Part shown: positions 608 through 19,943 of the stretch, piece by piece
Numbering within the stretch: the first letter of the stretch is position 1
Layout of the letters: each line of letters begins with the position of its first letter
Source of the DNA: a virus
Strand: one strand, 5' to 3'
IMG/VR virus record: IMGVR_UViG_3300035698_010998
Coordinates: 1 to 21,580 of that record
DNA: 21,580 nt
Made by a program: the position numbers and the translations under genes
Notes under the pieces: model-generated
Seen by the model: only the letters and a program-made list of their open reading frames with translations
Database searches by the model: none
What the model was told of the DNA's origin: nothing

Positions 608-781
608 TAATCCAAAAGAATAATTCCCTTCCCTAGAGTGCGATTGCGCAGATTTGTTTCCTCCATTCAAATCAACTTTAAGGGGGGGGATCTTTAATAG
701 TTCCAATGAGGATCAACGGATACAAAACTCAATAATATTAACACTAACACGCAACACAATACAACAAAACGGAGAGTGACA

Positions 782-1189
782 ATGGCCACTAGAGGGCAAT
801 CAGTACTGGAAGAATTCCCAGTCGAGAAAGTTCAAGATTTATTCATAGAGGCGTATGGACGGGTTGTTGTAGTCGCGGATATGATGAATTGCTCAGTAAG
901 AACAATTTACGATTTGCTAGATATATACCCTGAAATAGTGGAAGCAAGAGCAATCGGGACCAGAAGAAAAAGAAATCTTAAAATTGAAACAGCCGAACAA
1001 GTTCTTCAAAAAATGCTAGACAGGGTTGATACTGAGGCTGATCTAGCAGCAAGACAAGCTCAATTTATATTGAGGTATGCTAAAGACTCTCCATACAACA
1101 ACACCACAAACAACAACCCCCTTGAAGAAGAAAGAGATAATGCTAAATCTTTAATTGGCGAAATAAGGCAACAGATCCAAAGTGATTAA
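782..1189 (+). CDS. terS: Terminase small subunit
   Basis: This is a 135-residue protein. Small terminases form a ring that recognises the packaging start on viral DNA and hands it to the large subunit. An N-terminal helix-turn-helix is suggested by residues 28-50 (VVVADMMNCSVRTIYDLLD), followed by basic RRKR at 61-64 and a helical middle (ETAEQVLQKMLD) likely used for oligomerisation. The C-terminal tail is polar and Asn-rich and then acidic. The start at ATG 782 is preferred over an in-frame GTG at 776, because GGAG at 771-774 lies 7 bases before the ATG but only 1 base before the GTG. The 3' end overlaps terL by 8 bases, which suggests translational coupling. The family call rests on size, HTH and position rather than a strong signature. 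Confidence 0.8.
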   Translation: MATRGQSVLEEFPVEKVQDLFIEAYGRVVVVADMMNCSVRTIYDLLDIYPEIVEARAIGTRRKRNLKIETAEQVLQKMLDRVDTEADLAARQAQFILRYAKDSPYNNTTNNNPLEEERDNAKSLIGEIRQQIQSD

Positions 1190-2975
1190 ACCTGATATTC
1201 CATTGCTTAGCAAAAAGCAAAAGTTGGCTTACTCTCAAGCCAATAAAAGAATAAACATCTGGTGCGGGGCTGTCCGTAGTGGGAAGACGTACTCATCACT
1301 CATAAAGTTCATTGAGCTACTTACAGAGGGCCCACGTGGCGACACTCTGGTAGTTGGGGTAACCAGGGATGCTATACAGAGAAACGTCATTACAGACCTT
1401 TGCAAGCTGATTAACGCTAAGGTTCCATCGTCCAAGTCTAACGAAATGACTTTTCTTGGTAGAAAAATCTATTTTGTCGGTGCAAATGACGAACGAGCAG
1501 TTCGTCGCATTCAGGGATCTACTCTAGCACTAGCGTACGTTGACGAGTGCGCAGAGGTACCAGAAAACTTTTGGAACATGCTTTTATCAAGACTTAGCGT
1601 TCCCGGCGCACAGCTTCTAGCTTCGTGCAACCCGTCCAATCCGATGCATTGGCTAAAACAAAAGTTTCTTGATCATGAAGATGAATTAAATCTTATTTCT
1701 TGGAAGTTTGTACTAGATGACAATCCGATATTGACTGACGAGTACAAAAATGCATTGAAAAAAGAATACACGGGAATGTGGTACAAGCGATATATCCTCG
1801 GTGAGTGGGCAGTCGCTCATGGGCTGATTTACGATCAGTTTGATAATGATAATTTGTATACTCAAGAGCCAAATAACCCAGATTTCTTAGTATGTGGTAT
1901 CGACTATGGGTCAGCAAACCCCACAGCGGCGGTAATACTGGCATGCTCACCATCAAGATATCCTCAACTGAGGGTTCAAGACACCTTTTACTTTAATTCA
2001 GCTGAAGCAGGACGAGGAAAAACCGATTCTGAGTTAGCAGATGATATTGAAGAGTGGCTTAAGGGGTACCCGGTAAAAACAATATACCTAGATCCTTCTG
2101 CTTTAAGTTTTAAATTAGAGCTAGGAAATAGGGGCCTTCCTGTAAAATCAGCAAACAATAATGTTGAAGTGGGGATCCAAACAGTGAATAAGTGGATTGG
2201 TGGAAAGAATTTGGTAGTCCACTCCTCGTGCAAAAAACTAATTGAAGAAATAAAATCGTATTCATGGGATCCTAAGGCTGTTGAGCGTGGAGAGGACAAG
2301 CCAATTAAGAAATTCGATCATCTGTGCTTTGTTAAGGGCACAATGATTTCTACTGATTCCGGTGATGTTCCAATTCAAGATTTGTGTGTTGGCGATTCTG
2401 TATTGACTAGGCGTGGCTACAAGAAGGTCGTTGCGACAATGTCCAGTAGGAGTTGTGATATATGGGAACTCAAGGCTGGAGATAACACACTTACAGCAAC
2501 GGGAAATCATCCTATTTGGACAGTTGAAGGCTATAGACCATTGAATTCTTTAAATGGATGCTTTAAGATATGTCGCTCAAACCGTCAAAAAATCGATTCT
2601 GTAGCAATAATTGAAAAGCAAAACACCGAAGAGATTCAGGGGTTGATAATTAAAATAGAAGCTGTAAGTTGTGTATCCAAACCTTTGTCACAAACAAATA
2701 TAATAGAACTATGTTTTGCTCGGGAAGATGTGCAGGAAAATTTAATAGACGTTTACAACTTGACCGTTGAAGACGAGCACGAGTACTTTGCAAATGGAAT
2801 TTTAGTGTCAAACTGTGACGCACTTCGGTACAGTGTTTTTTCCACATTTCCAAAAGGAACATTTGGCGAGTTAGATAAAGATTACTCCATAGACGCAGTG
2901 AGACAAAGAGCCTATGGAAGCCAATCAAATGGACACAATATATTTGGAGAAATAAATTCATCAAGTTATTTCTGA
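1182..2975 (+). CDS. terL: Terminase large subunit with an embedded mini-intein
   Basis: TerL is the ATP-driven packaging motor and the nuclease that cuts the concatemer. The 597-residue reading frame holds the ATPase first: Walker A GAVRSGKT (29-36), Walker B YVDE (119-122) and the coupling motif SCNP (148-151). The RNase H-like nuclease follows, with D241 (GIDYG) and D304 (YLDPSA). The third catalytic region reads DH (379-380) plus CDALRY (545-550), but a 163-residue intein (382-544) sits between them. Removing it leaves 434 residues and restores DHLCDALRY, the normal C-terminal nuclease motif. The start is GTG at 1182, overlapping terS, with no strong ribosome binding site, so translation is probably coupled to terS. 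Before splicing the precursor should lack nuclease activity because the metal-binding Asp546 is displaced. Confidence 0.95.
   Translation: MIKPDIPLLSKKQKLAYSQANKRINIWCGAVRSGKTYSSLIKFIELLTEGPRGDTLVVGVTRDAIQRNVITDLCKLINAKVPSSKSNEMTFLGRKIYFVGANDERAVRRIQGSTLALAYVDECAEVPENFWNMLLSRLSVPGAQLLASCNPSNPMHWLKQKFLDHEDELNLISWKFVLDDNPILTDEYKNALKKEYTGMWYKRYILGEWAVAHGLIYDQFDNDNLYTQEPNNPDFLVCGIDYGSANPTAAVILACSPSRYPQLRVQDTFYFNSAEAGRGKTDSELADDIEEWLKGYPVKTIYLDPSALSFKLELGNRGLPVKSANNNVEVGIQTVNKWIGGKNLVVHSSCKKLIEEIKSYSWDPKAVERGEDKPIKKFDHLCFVKGTMISTDSGDVPIQDLCVGDSVLTRRGYKKVVATMSSRSCDIWELKAGDNTLTATGNHPIWTVEGYRPLNSLNGCFKICRSNRQKIDSVAIIEKQNTEEIQGLIIKIEAVSCVSKPLSQTNIIELCFAREDVQENLIDVYNLTVEDEHEYFANGILVSNCDALRYSVFSTFPKGTFGELDKDYSIDAVRQRAYGSQSNGHNIFGEINSSSYF
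2325..2813 (+). other. Mini-intein (HINT domain, no homing endonuclease) in TerL
   Basis: This in-frame insertion encodes TerL residues 382-544. The N-terminal block is Cys382 followed by FVKGTMISTDSG and VGDSVLTR. The TxxH block is T440-G-N-H443 in the context TATGNHPIWT. The C-terminal block reads VYNLTVEDEHEYFANG, with the block-F His at 533. The intein ends at Asn544 and the +1 extein residue is Cys545. These are the residues used in standard class 1 splicing. At 163 residues it is near the minimum for a HINT fold, and no LAGLIDADG or HNH motif is visible. The residue before the terminal Asn is Ser543 instead of the usual His. The insertion point splits the nuclease motif DHL/CDALRY, a typical highly conserved intein site. 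Confidence 0.93.
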
Positions 2976-3020
2976 TTTCTGATATTTTGTGATAATATAA
3001 CAAATTAAATTGGATTGTAA

Positions 3021-5165
3021 ATGCTATCTCCCATATCTGACAGCTCGACCGATGCCGACATAAAGCAGCTAATGACTTATCACTACGATAGCTCGTATAC
3101 TGCATCATCTGCTTTCTGGAGAGAGGCAGAAATCGATAAGAGATTTAAGATCGGAGATCAAAACTTTCTAAATTCGTATGGTCAGAGAAACAACGTATCA
3201 TTTAATTATATTCGTCGACAAACGAACATGATCGAAGGTTATCAACGGCAGAACCGAAAATCTTCTGCTCTCATTGCTGTGGAAGACAAGGATCAAAAGC
3301 TATCTGATCAGTGGACCAAGCTTAGCCTTTGGTCAGAGCGAAGGGAAGGCTTTCACGAGTACTTTTCACAAGCCTTTGGCGGAGCACTAGACACAGGGCT
3401 TTCACTACTTCATCTCTACAACGACTTTACCACAGACCCAGTATCTGGGGATCTTATGTGCGATAATGTGTCGTACAATAATTTTATGATCGATCCATTC
3501 TTTCGAAAGCAAGATTTGAGCGACTGTAATTTTGTTTGGCGAAGGAAGTGGGTGAGCAAGCAAAAAGCTAAGCAATTACTTCCCCAGATGGCCGAAGAAA
3601 TTGAAAAAATGCGCCCAGACGGCGTGAAAGATGGACGATTTCCAATTCAGGCCGAGGCTCTATACTCTCAGAACTCAAAGCTTTTTACCTATGACGAGTT
3701 CCATTATATGGATACTCGACCTAGTACCATAGTAGTAGACACTAAGACTGGCGAGACTATGGAGTGGGAGGAGAATCCGGACGACGATAAAAATGAAATG
3801 GAATTAACTCTATCGCAACAACCATGGCTAAGGATCAAAAAGATTCAAAAGCCGACTGTAAAGCTCGCAATTGTTCTTAGCGGAAAAGTTATGTACTCAG
3901 GTACAAATCTTTTAAATGTTGATAGGTATCCTTTCATCCCTATTCTTTGCTATCACGAGCCTGATGTAGCCAATTCCGCTTGGAGATTTCAGGGAATAGT
4001 AAGAAATCTTAGAGACAGTCAGTTTTTGTTTAACAGGCGTAGAGTAATTGAACTGGACATCCTCGAGAGTCAAATAAACTCAGGATACAAATATAAAGTT
4101 GGTTCAGTTACAGACGAGAAAGTATTTAGACAGACAGGCCAAGGGTTTCTCATTCCGATGAACTCGAATTCTGAAATGAGCGACGTAGAGAGAATTGACC
4201 CCCCTGGGATTCCTCAGTCTATGACAGAGCTATCTAGATCGCTAGCGGACGATATATCAAAGATTTCAGGCGTTAACGAAGAGCTACTAGGATCAGCTAC
4301 TGATGATAAGTCCGGAATTCTCTCTATGCTTCGACAAGGTGCAGGTCTTACAACCCTTCAGACAATTTTCGATAAGCTTGATTATAGTCAGAAATTATTT
4401 GTAAGTCTTAGAAACGAAGCGATTAGAAAAAACTGGAGCAATGGAAAGATTAGAAATATTATTGGAGAGCAGCCAGATGAGAGACTTCGCCTAACCAATA
4501 CACAAAAATTTGATGTTGCAGTAGAGCAAGGAAGTTATTCAATCACACAGAAGCAAATGGAGCTCAAACAGCTAATTTACTTTAGAGAGTTGGGTGTTGC
4601 TATCTCAGATGAAGATCTACTTCAGGCTTCAACGATGCAAAATAAATCAAAAATTATAGAGCGTCATAATCAATCCAAGCAACAACAGCAAGAGCAGCAA
4701 GAGCAGCAAATGCAGATGGAAGCTCAGAGACAAGAGCAGTCAGCTGCTAATCAGCGCATGCTTGATTACTCTAAGTCTAAGCTAGACATGGCATCAGCTA
4801 AAGACAAAGAAGCTAGTGCATTTGAAAAGATATCCAAGATAGATGACAACAAGGCACAGGCTGAAGAGTCTAGAACACAGGCCGAGCTTAATCTTGTTAA
4901 AACATTGATTGAGCTTGAAGATATGGACCTAAGACAGCTAAAAGAATCCATTGCAATGGCCGACATACTAAAAGCCAAGCATCAAGCAGACGTCCAGCAA
5001 TCAGAAATTCAGCAAGTTTACCAAGAGCAGCCACCACAAGCACCGGTTTACCAAGATCAGCCACCAGTAGTATCCGAACCAGTGCCAGGGCTAGAGCCAG
5101 GGCTAGAGCCAGGGCTAGAGCCAGGACTAGAACCACAACTAAACCCCCAAGGAGATCTAATATGA
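3021..5165 (+). CDS. Portal protein (P22-type)
   Basis: At 714 residues this is close to the P22 gp1 portal (about 725). The portal is the dodecameric ring at one capsid vertex through which DNA enters and leaves, and on which TerL and then the adaptor dock. The N-terminal half has P22-portal-like text (IGDQNFLNSYGQRNNVSFNYI, then IEGYQRQNRKSS, then YNNFMIDPFF). From about residue 545 to 675 the chain turns into Gln-rich, highly charged helix with KQQQQEQQEQQ near 553-563, a probable coiled coil resembling the long C-terminal barrel of P22 portal. It ends in a Pro-rich tail with four PGLE-type repeats (689-704). The start is ATG at 3021. It lies 45 bases after terL, and its stop overlaps the next gene as ATGA. 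Confidence 0.88.
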   Translation: MLSPISDSSTDADIKQLMTYHYDSSYTASSAFWREAEIDKRFKIGDQNFLNSYGQRNNVSFNYIRRQTNMIEGYQRQNRKSSALIAVEDKDQKLSDQWTKLSLWSERREGFHEYFSQAFGGALDTGLSLLHLYNDFTTDPVSGDLMCDNVSYNNFMIDPFFRKQDLSDCNFVWRRKWVSKQKAKQLLPQMAEEIEKMRPDGVKDGRFPIQAEALYSQNSKLFTYDEFHYMDTRPSTIVVDTKTGETMEWEENPDDDKNEMELTLSQQPWLRIKKIQKPTVKLAIVLSGKVMYSGTNLLNVDRYPFIPILCYHEPDVANSAWRFQGIVRNLRDSQFLFNRRRVIELDILESQINSGYKYKVGSVTDEKVFRQTGQGFLIPMNSNSEMSDVERIDPPGIPQSMTELSRSLADDISKISGVNEELLGSATDDKSGILSMLRQGAGLTTLQTIFDKLDYSQKLFVSLRNEAIRKNWSNGKIRNIIGEQPDERLRLTNTQKFDVAVEQGSYSITQKQMELKQLIYFRELGVAISDEDLLQASTMQNKSKIIERHNQSKQQQQEQQEQQMQMEAQRQEQSAANQRMLDYSKSKLDMASAKDKEASAFEKISKIDDNKAQAEESRTQAELNLVKTLIELEDMDLRQLKESIAMADILKAKHQADVQQSEIQQVYQEQPPQAPVYQDQPPVVSEPVPGLEPGLEPGLEPGLEPQLNPQGDLI
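5085..5132 (+). repeat. 12-bp tandem repeat in the portal 3' end (PGLE x4)
   Basis: Three exact units of CCAGGGCTAGAG (5085-5096, 5097-5108, 5109-5120) and one variant, CCAGGACTAGAA (5121-5132), encode a run of Pro-Gly-Leu-Glu repeats at the portal C-terminus. In-frame 12-bp units change copy number without shifting frame, so the tail length is probably variable among relatives. Confidence 0.9.
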
Positions 5166-17522: not shown

Positions 17523-17591
17523 GATATTTTGTCAGAAAAATAACCACAAGCAAATAAGACCTAAAAAAAATCCATGTCAGGAGATGACAGT

Positions 17592-19943
17592 ATGACAACA
17601 TTTAATTCAGAAAATCCACTTGGGTATCTAGGAATCACAGATTCAAACCCAGGTGTCCAGGTAGCAGACAGAGACCCAGCAACTACAGATAATTCTTTTC
17701 CATTGGGAACATCGTGGATCAATAAATCTACTGGAGCATACTTTACATATGTTTCTGATTCTAATTGGGATTCCGGGGGAAATGTCGATGCAACTACAAC
17801 TGTTGCTGGTATTGTGAAAATCAATACAGACGTAACTTTAGCCGGGGCAGATAATACTACTGTACCTACAGCTCTAAGTACAAAAACGTACGCGGATAAT
17901 TTGGCTATTGCGGGTGCTCCAAACGGTTCAACAACTGTTAAGGGTATATTTGAAGAGGCTACAGACGCAGAAGTTGTGGCAGGTACTACCATGGGCGGAA
18001 CAGGCGCACAGCTAGCAGTCAATCCAGGTTCTCTTGCTGCTTTAATGGCTGCTCCAGGCGCTATCGGCGGAACAACTGCAGCAGCTGGTAGCTTTACGAC
18101 TGTTGCAGCAAGCGGACTGTCATCTCTTAGCGGATCGGCTACAGTTCTAACCGCTGGCACAGCATTAAATCTAGGATCCGATAATAGCGCAGATGCAGTT
18201 AACCTAGGAGTTGGTACCACTGCACGAGCCATCGGAATCGGGAACTCGGCAGCTGCCCACGTGGTTACTGTTGGTTCTGTTACGGGAGCCTCACAAGTCG
18301 TACTGAACTCCGGTACCGCTGGGATCCAGCTAGCGTCAACCGGCGCTGGAGACATCACAATTAACTCGGACGACACTCTGCTACTCGATGCTGACGGAGT
18401 CCTAGAGATTAACAGCTCAGCGGGCGTAATAGGAATTGGTAGCGACGCTGATGCAAATAACATCAATATTGGAACTGGCGCTGCGCAACGTGTAATTACA
18501 ATAGGAAACGATACTTCAGCCTCTAGTTTTGTCGTAACGGCAGGAACAGGCGCTGTCGATATTGGTGTAAACGCAATTGCTCACACCACAAGCATCGGTA
18601 ACAAGACTGGTGCCTCAGCTCTAATTCTAGATACTGGAACGGGAAATTTCGCCCTAAATGGTGTAGGTTCAACGACTTACAACATCGGAGCAGCTACTAC
18701 ATCAGGCACAATCGACATCGGAGGCACAGCAGCCACAGGAACAATGACCCTAGGCGATTCCAGCGGTACTAACATTGTTCAAGTAGGTTCGGGTGAAGGT
18801 GCTACTACTGTGGCAATTGCCGGAGGTGCTACAAATCCTAAGGCGGTCACCATAGCTGATGGTGCAGTTGCTTCTACCGTAGTAGTTGGATCTGCAAGCG
18901 CTGGAGCTATTACAGTCGACACAGCAGCAGGAATTAGCTTTGACGCTGCTACAGCTTCGAATTTTACTGTTACAACAGCAGCCGCAGATTTAACGCTTCA
19001 GTCGTCAGCTGGTCGAGTAGTAGTTAAAGGTGAAGAAGCAGCTGTTTCAGCAGTCGAGTTAGTATCGGCAGCAGGTGGTATTTCAGCATCTAGCGCACTT
19101 CAATTAAGTTTAATTTCTAGTGAAGCAGCACAAGTAGACTCTGTTAGAATTCAAGCAAGTGCAGCCGATGGCGGTATCGACGTGGATGCTGGAACCGGAG
19201 GGATCACAATTGATTCAACTGGTGCTGTTTCTATTGATGCAGCAGCGGCTTCAAACTTCAGTGTTTCCGGGGCAGGAATTGATCTAGATCTAGCTTCAAC
19301 AGGCGGTCGTATCATTGCTACTTCTGGAGAAGATTCAGCAGATTCAATTTATCTACGCGCTAATGCTGGAACTAGTGAAACGATTCGCCTACATTCTGAT
19401 CAGGGAACAGGCGCGGCAAGTGTCCATCTTGAATCTGATGTTGGTGGTGTTACACTCACATCCGGTCTTGCAAGTGCTGACGCGATCAACTTCGTTTCAA
19501 CAAACGGAGGCGTAGATTTAGATGCTGCGCTTCAGGTTAACATTGCGAGTTCACAGGCAACAGCAGGTGCAATTACTCTGGTAGTTTCAGATGCCGCTGG
19601 TTCGATCGCACACACTGGAAGATGTGTTTATACACCGGATAGCATCACTAGCGATAACGCTGGCGTTGCAGCTAGTGTTTCAACTGTCACAACTCTGATT
19701 ACAACGGATGGCGACAGTAATGAGGATAATGTTACCATTGCGGATGGAATCGCGGGTCAGGTTAAGATTTTCTCTGTAGTTGCAGCAGGAAACGCAGCTG
19801 ACTCTATAAAGATTACCCCGGCTAACTTCTCACAAGGCACAAAAATCACCTTTGCAGCCGATCCAACAGGTAAAGGATGCAGTATGGTGTTCGATGGAAC
19901 AAATTGGAATATTTTTTCCAATAACGGCGGAACTATCGCATAA
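17592..19943 (+). CDS. Long repetitive tail fibre protein
   Basis: This is a 783-residue protein. ATG 17592 is chosen because AGGAG at 17579-17583 lies 8 bases upstream. An in-frame ATG at 17574 lies before that site and has none of its own. The N-terminus (NPLGYLGITDSNPGVQVADR, then PLGTSWINKSTGAYF) is a virion-attachment module common in phage fibres. From about residue 180 to 680 the chain is built of short Gly/Ala/Thr/Ser/Val repeats of roughly 15-25 residues, such as NIGTGAAQRVITIGNDTSAS and SIGNKTGASALILDTGTGN, with regular 'IxIG' strands. That pattern predicts a trimeric beta-roll shaft. The last 90 residues are a distinct non-repetitive tip (ENVTIADG-like turns, then PTGKGCSMVFDGTNWNIFSN), likely a receptor-binding or trimerisation end. 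It probably mediates host recognition. Confidence 0.8.
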   Translation: MTTFNSENPLGYLGITDSNPGVQVADRDPATTDNSFPLGTSWINKSTGAYFTYVSDSNWDSGGNVDATTTVAGIVKINTDVTLAGADNTTVPTALSTKTYADNLAIAGAPNGSTTVKGIFEEATDAEVVAGTTMGGTGAQLAVNPGSLAALMAAPGAIGGTTAAAGSFTTVAASGLSSLSGSATVLTAGTALNLGSDNSADAVNLGVGTTARAIGIGNSAAAHVVTVGSVTGASQVVLNSGTAGIQLASTGAGDITINSDDTLLLDADGVLEINSSAGVIGIGSDADANNINIGTGAAQRVITIGNDTSASSFVVTAGTGAVDIGVNAIAHTTSIGNKTGASALILDTGTGNFALNGVGSTTYNIGAATTSGTIDIGGTAATGTMTLGDSSGTNIVQVGSGEGATTVAIAGGATNPKAVTIADGAVASTVVVGSASAGAITVDTAAGISFDAATASNFTVTTAAADLTLQSSAGRVVVKGEEAAVSAVELVSAAGGISASSALQLSLISSEAAQVDSVRIQASAADGGIDVDAGTGGITIDSTGAVSIDAAAASNFSVSGAGIDLDLASTGGRIIATSGEDSADSIYLRANAGTSETIRLHSDQGTGAASVHLESDVGGVTLTSGLASADAINFVSTNGGVDLDAALQVNIASSQATAGAITLVVSDAAGSIAHTGRCVYTPDSITSDNAGVAASVSTVTTLITTDGDSNEDNVTIADGIAGQVKIFSVVAAGNAADSIKITPANFSQGTKITFAADPTGKGCSMVFDGTNWNIFSNNGGTIA

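Follow-up and report, generated by a model that had tools for sequence, protein, structure and literature searches.

The large terminase (TerL) gene of the virus recorded as IMGVR_UViG_3300035698_010998 is interrupted by a 163-residue mini-intein, which very probably decayed from a family of inteins that hide an HNH homing endonuclease in an overlapping -1 frame; for this family we infer splicing, expression, and homing from sequence. Our confidence that an HNH endonuclease was hidden there is high, and it is lower for the expression of the HNH protein, for homing, and for any regulatory role. The window analyzed here is the whole stretch of 21,580 nucleotides.

A Mini-intein Splits the Nuclease Motif of TerL

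The terminase region of the window contains the following features.

776-1189, plus strand: probable small terminase subunit (by position and a weak HTH-type PHROG match), overlapping the TerL start
1182-2975, plus strand: TerL precursor gene, GTG start, 597 amino acids, reading through; matches Terminase_3, Terminase_6N, TIGR01547, and 5OE8, a structure that we take to be the terminase of phage D6E
1182-2324, plus strand: N-extein
1902-1904, plus strand: Asp241, invariant in the TerL alignment
2091-2093, plus strand: Asp304, invariant in the TerL alignment
2325-2813, plus strand: mini-intein of 163 amino acids, HINT fold
2325-2327, plus strand: intein Cys1 (TerL Cys382), the block A nucleophile, invariant across the aligned inteins
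2499-2510, plus strand: block B TxxH, TerL Thr440 to His443 (intein Thr59-x-x-His62), Thr and His both invariant
2778-2780, plus strand: block F His, TerL His533 (intein His152), invariant
2808-2816, plus strand: splice junction with penultimate Ser543, terminal Asn544 (intein Asn163), and +1 Cys545 (NCBIfam intein_Cterm)
2814-2972, plus strand: C-extein, followed by the stop codon
2817-2819, plus strand: Asp546, the third of the acidic nuclease residues, opposite D6E Asp408 and invariant in the TerL alignment

Just 5' of the terminase genes lies a RusA-like Holliday junction resolvase gene (203-607; PHROG E 3e-36). Far downstream, positions 17574-19943 encode a 789-amino acid low-complexity, repeat-rich protein, possibly tail fiber-like, which had no PHROG match at E 0.001; a 301-amino acid open frame (17561-18466) runs antisense to its gene.

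The first-pass annotation had proposed a mini-intein with a complete set of HINT splicing residues, and Cys382, Thr440-x-x-His443, His533, Asn544, and Cys545 were all found at the positions it gave. These are the block A Cys, TxxH, block F His, terminal Asn, and +1 Cys of a class 1 intein, and they belong to a HINT-fold insert that lies in frame within a host protein existing elsewhere without it (locus L002, D6E); the residue before the terminal Asn is Ser543, not His. The intein matched Pfam Hint_2 (E 2.8e-10) and NCBIfam intein_Cterm (E 4e-6) above their cut-offs, and Pfam Intein_splicing (E 6e-5) below its cut-off. An AlphaFold2 model of the intein built from 24 relatives reached a pLDDT of 87 and could be superimposed on the Mtu RecA intein (Z 18.4, rmsd 1.9, 128 residues), and over its whole length it resembles solved inteins (Foldseek E down to 4e-8), gp41-1 and DnaB inteins among them. 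The model of the entire precursor was poor (pTM 0.38) and unreliable in the nuclease part, and no placement of the intein relative to the active site was drawn from it. The HINT parts of the window and of loci L003 and L004 differ mostly by synonymous changes, with a dN/dS of about 0.22-0.25 where computable, and such purifying selection fits continued splicing after endonuclease loss. The domain matches, the fold, the intein-free homologues, and the selection on the HINT part all support the proposed 163-residue mini-intein, which is probably splicing-competent. A split-intein reading of the window TerL was ruled out, both halves lying in a single open frame. TerL itself is a PBSX-type large terminase, with TIGR01547 above cut-off, three acidic nuclease residues, and an alignment to the D6E terminase.

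As had also been claimed, the intein separates DHL from CDALRY just before Asp546, the third catalytic Asp of the packaging nuclease. When the spliced TerL was aligned to its intein-free homologues, the alignment was gapless across the junction for D6E (DHLCDALRY against DHQLDADRY), for L002, which is 74% identical to the window TerL and reads NDHAIDSLRY, and for L006, which reads FDHLQDSTRY. At the position of the +1 Cys these intein-free proteins (D6E, L002, and L006) have Leu, Ile, or Gln. The same motif III site is occupied by an intein in L003, L004, and Microcystis phage Mic1, and is empty in L002 and D6E.

In phage G20c, catalysis by the TerL nuclease cannot proceed without its three metal-binding Asp residues (PMC5389553). 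A coupling of packaging nuclease activity to splicing is plausible in the window, since the counterpart of D6E Asp408 reaches its position only once the intein has been removed; a catalytic codon that is conserved would also make a good target for homing in its own right. One could go further and suppose that the intein has been kept as a regulator, its conditional splicing timing the activation of the packaging nuclease in response to, for example, redox or DNA state. The split catalytic motif, the purifying selection on a mini-intein that outlasted its endonuclease, and the sensor role put forward by the authors of the Mic1 study (PMC7156551) point in this direction, but such selection is equally expected if TerL merely must be made, and a conserved motif is the usual site for homing elements, which leaves regulation an unlikely reason for the persistence of the intein.

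Full-size Relatives Carry an HNH Gene in the -1 Frame

The relatives of this intein in viral contigs are much longer than that of the window (241-364 residues), and under each of them runs a second long open reading frame in a constant relative frame, -1, in which the HNH codons begin two bases after the TerL codons. All 10 of the hidden frames tested were HNH_3 endonucleases according to Pfam, with zinc-finger-like CxxC pairs in their C-terminal parts. The hidden frame begins past HINT block B and stops 1-85 bases, most commonly 43 or 55, short of the intein end. The same -1-frame HNH_3 gene is present in isolated or deposited phages, namely Tetrasphaera phage TJE1, Acinetobacter phage Highwayman, and Rhodobacteraceae phage LS06, whose GenBank records annotate TerL alone at this place and leave the HNH gene unannotated.

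The main survey covered 181 loci, which gave 130 distinct intein-like stretches, and used an HNH profile threshold of 20 bits. Matches were found in the -1 frame in 79 cases (fossils and two composite duplicates included), on the reverse strand in one, and in neither the intein frame nor the +1 frame in any, a tally that describes the family and not inteins at large, since the survey loci were retrieved by similarity to the intein family of the window. Among 54 bacterial and archaeal loci from genome contigs there were 22 rows in the -1 frame (one a composite duplicate and one a short weak match, leaving about 20 inteins), none in frame, and four in the +1 frame. As a control, the in-frame HNH of the dCTP deaminase intein of Aphanizomenon phage CL131 was detected in frame by the profile (43.6 bits). 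Inspection of the exteins showed that the survey hosts are mostly terminase-like. The statistics below draw on 72 full-size inteins from viral contigs and isolated phages (63 of them non-redundant), whose insertion sites, classified by a simple pattern, were motif III-like in 43, CDE (Walker B-like) in three, and unclassified in 26. Together with those from genome contigs, about 90 relatives have the HNH gene hidden in this way.

Two further observations were made in these loci. The reverse-strand match (33.5 bits) is the best HNH match of an intein-like stretch of 393 amino acids (L128). Five loci (L041, L047, L058, L060, and L061) contain two to three tandem HINT-like units of about 149 residues each, which end in HN followed by Arg or Lys, not by Cys, Ser, or Thr.

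The Overlapping Frames Are Probably under Different Constraints

The HNH frame was more identical in amino acids than the linker frame in 98% of 2,556 pairs (medians 0.35 versus 0.25), although the pairs in these frame comparisons are not independent. In 68 closer pairs, the nucleotide differences at the first, second, and third positions of the HNH codons numbered 3324, 2838, and 4532, the third being highest; in the HINT-N part the corresponding values of 754, 585, and 1499 gave a third-position excess in the intein frame. Stop codons of the intein frame within the last 150 codons were found in none of the 63 genes, against 2.1 expected when synonymous codons were permuted, and Met was likewise never seen before Lys, Asn, Thr, Ile, or Met, although 16.8 such pairs, each of which would place a stop in the intein frame, were expected. 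Stops in the third frame (15.2) agreed with expectation (15.5). The simplest reading of these data is that the two overlapping frames are under different constraints, the HNH frame being held for its sequence and the intein linker for its openness.

How the HNH protein would be made bears on the same overlap. A Shine-Dalgarno-like motif precedes 19 of 62 HNH starts, a threefold enrichment over control ATGs (9.6%), and a candidate ATG stands at a similar distance 5' of the HNH core in 55 of the 62. Internal initiation of the HNH gene is likely from these signals and, by the Shine-Dalgarno test, not universal. The visible ribosome-binding motif at only about a third of the starts could instead favor ribosomal frameshifting, yielding a fusion to the N-terminal half of the intein, or removal of the segment as an intron. 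Against these routes stand the regularly spaced ATG codons, a TerL frame that is open throughout, and a search of five loci in which no Rfam intron family was matched, and we consider it doubtful that either replaces internal initiation.

Intein and HNH distances were weakly correlated (Spearman 0.19, a value reached by one of 1,000 permutations), which suggests some shared history of the two parts plus exchange.

Other Arrangements of the HNH Gene and a Second Kind of Hidden Endonuclease

Relatives of the hidden HNH also occur as free-standing genes next to the terminase genes of Acinetobacter phage BP10 and Exiguobacterium phage EauM-23. In Lactobacillus phage CL2 (L069, 1640-2760), TerL runs into an N-intein half closed by a stop; downstream come an annotated HNH gene and, in another frame, a C-intein half joined to the TerL tail, the apparent split falling at the motif III site. 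This arrangement may be a natural split intein. In EauM-23 (L072, 2600-3710), the annotated TerL ends in NNHSMAA, the HNH gene is next, and a CDATRY-like tail lies in another frame. No recognizable HINT motifs and no Rfam intron match were found in the HNH insert between NNH and CDATRY. The three phages look like alternative arrangements of one HNH type around the same target. The adjacency to terminase genes in BP10, EauM-23, and CL2 would also be expected if the hidden HNH served DNA packaging and not homing, like the HNH proteins encoded beside terminases, but the same HNH type occurs in inteins at sites other than motif III, the HNH has been lost repeatedly while TerL stays (the window, L088, L095, and L098), and the intein-free L002 exists, making a packaging function quite improbable.

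More distant inteins hide a DUF559 nuclease in the +1 frame, in open reading frames of 187-297 codons (Pfam E down to 8e-15), most of which carry zinc-finger-like CxxC pairs. These inteins are mostly inserted behind a DE or similar motif of helicase-like proteins, and two others hide a +1-frame HNH (PF01844).

L059, 5190-5750: DUF559, +1 frame
L201, 2462-3127: DUF559, +1 frame
L207, 1768-2439: DUF559, +1 frame
L221, 2276-3013: DUF559, +1 frame
L222, 2162-3052: DUF559, +1 frame
L234, 2267-3052: DUF559, +1 frame
L039, 5200-5793: DUF559, +1 frame
L210, 3062-3934: HNH (PF01844), +1 frame
L220, 2213-3016: HNH (PF01844), +1 frame

It thus seems that inteins acquired out-of-frame endonucleases on more than one occasion. 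We think it probable that there is a broad class of phage inteins whose endonuclease is independently translated from an overlapping, out-of-frame gene of multiple origins (with HNH_3 in the -1 frame, chiefly at terminase sites, and with DUF559 or HNH in the +1 frame at other sites), and that mini-inteins arise in it by decay of the overlapping gene with the splicing frame preserved.

An HNH Fossil Lies under the Mini-intein of the Window

A profile of 15 hidden HNH proteins, from which the window was excluded, was compared with 593 six-frame segments of the window. It located a fossil of the hidden gene.

2585-2752, plus strand: fossil of the hidden HNH endonuclease, -1 frame, with parts of two C-terminal zinc fingers (50.9 bits, stops read as X)
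2612-2614, plus strand: fossil stop codon TGA
2651-2653, plus strand: fossil stop codon TAA
2654-2770, plus strand: last uninterrupted fossil piece, 38 codons and the terminal stop TGA (2768-2770)

Of the -1-frame segments, 2654-2767 reached 26.8 bits (E 1.2e-7), and the part of the fossil upstream of this last piece scored 15.1 bits alone, a value reached by none of 2,000 shuffles. The core of the HNH gene is gone, and the C-terminal fossil is all that remains of it, in the frame and place of the family; it extends over 2585-2752, and the intein linker thus consists almost entirely of former endonuclease DNA. An intact endonuclease is absent in every frame, the fossil with its two stops standing in its place, as befits a mini-intein. 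The earlier statement that no homing endonuclease was visible holds for the intein frame and fails for the -1 frame. Reverse-strand open reading frames over the intein (2262-2510 and 2650-3108) were considered and rejected, as the listed matches to the HNH profile include no reverse segment above about 3.5 bits. A search of the rest of IMGVR_UViG_3300035698_010998 found no HNH_3.

One could instead read the element as an ordinary mini-intein with no out-of-frame endonuclease in its past and a zinc-finger match due to coincidence, and in favor of this the mini-inteins of L004, Mic1, and vir335, at the same or a neighboring site, gave no fossil above threshold in the profile scan. Against it, the 26.8 bits of the window compare with 5.7-5.8 for the runner-up among the 593 segments and with 10.7 for the highest-scoring of 3,000 dinucleotide-shuffled versions of the intein, and the score rises to 50.9 bits with the stops masked, in the frame and position of the full-size relatives. 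Three to four further mini-inteins also have such a fossil, again in the -1 frame (L088, 55.4 bits; L095, 41.9; L098, 32.4; and, weakly, L078, 17.6). A coincidental match is extremely unlikely. The out-of-frame HNH fossil shows where the mini-intein of the window came from, and this intein looks like a degenerate member of a large class with out-of-frame homing endonucleases.

Comparison with Known Systems

Inteins in TerL are familiar, and the DHL/CDALRY insertion site is not new, being already occupied in Mic1, whose TerL (MN013189) was described in 2020 as having a nuclease-domain mini-intein (PMC7156551); the Mic1 sequence places it at the identical junction. The two elements share the protein, the junction, the mini-intein format (146 amino acids in Mic1), and the Ser before the terminal Asn; they differ in that they are only about 26% identical (tblastn), in that no HNH fossil was detected in Mic1, and in that the Mic1 TerL bears an ATPase-domain intein as well. 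The mycobacteriophage TerL inteins are likewise inserted at functional motifs of large terminase subunits, but all lie in the ATPase domain, and the two tested for cleavage have in-frame LAGLIDADG endonucleases (PMC5050341). The dCTP deaminase intein of CL131, with reported self-excision in E. coli (PMC6293099), is also a phage intein with HNH_3, but there the HNH is in frame with the intein. The ShiLan domain is an out-of-frame HNH gene in a phage insert without an intein (PMC11855218). It resembles the family of the window in that the HNH is hidden out of frame and the insert leaves the host frame open, and differs in having no splicing domain, whereas the hidden gene of the family sits inside a complete HINT intein. 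The window, with its complete HINT domain, does not belong to the ShiLan type.

A 2025 preprint by Gosselin et al. reportedly deals with actinobacteriophage inteins of "non-canonical architecture" and may describe out-of-frame endonucleases in inteins; the newness of the hidden-HNH class depends on its content. Among the titles and openings of abstracts that were searched, no other description of an HNH hidden out of frame in an intein was found. The ShiLan paper cites the preprint for overlapping reading frames (PMC11855218).

Proposed Mechanism and Significance

We propose that the intein would be excised after translation by a class 1-type reaction, with an N-S shift at Cys382, transfer to Cys545, and cyclization of Asn544, and that excision would restore DHLCDALRY and bring the third metal-binding Asp into place. 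The endonuclease would come from a separate HNH gene that starts and stops independently and occupies the -1 frame in the interval from block B to block F, so that in the full-length members one stretch of DNA would be read twice, giving a disposable linker in the TerL frame and the HNH endonuclease in the overlapping one. TerL genes that lack the intein would be cut at motif III by the free HNH protein, and the element would be copied into them. The HNH gene of the window would have been largely deleted and its remainder would have gained stop codons, while the splicing part would have been kept under selection because TerL needs splicing. Points that weigh against this account are the Ser in place of a penultimate His, the minority of HNH starts with a Shine-Dalgarno-like motif, the weak correlation of intein and HNH distances, and the retrieval of the survey loci by similarity to the family.

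An intein is usually pictured as a single protein with a splicing domain and an endonuclease domain. In the family described here, splicing and endonuclease would be separate proteins encoded by the same DNA in different frames. If this is true, annotation misses the endonuclease altogether, as has happened in the GenBank entries for TJE1, Highwayman, and LS06; the linker of the intein would be a meaningless peptide, open solely through the avoidance of stop codons; and "mini-inteins without endonuclease" would call for a check of every frame. The family would offer a natural and testable case of genetic entanglement, in which a lost partner can still be read as a fossil within the surviving one.
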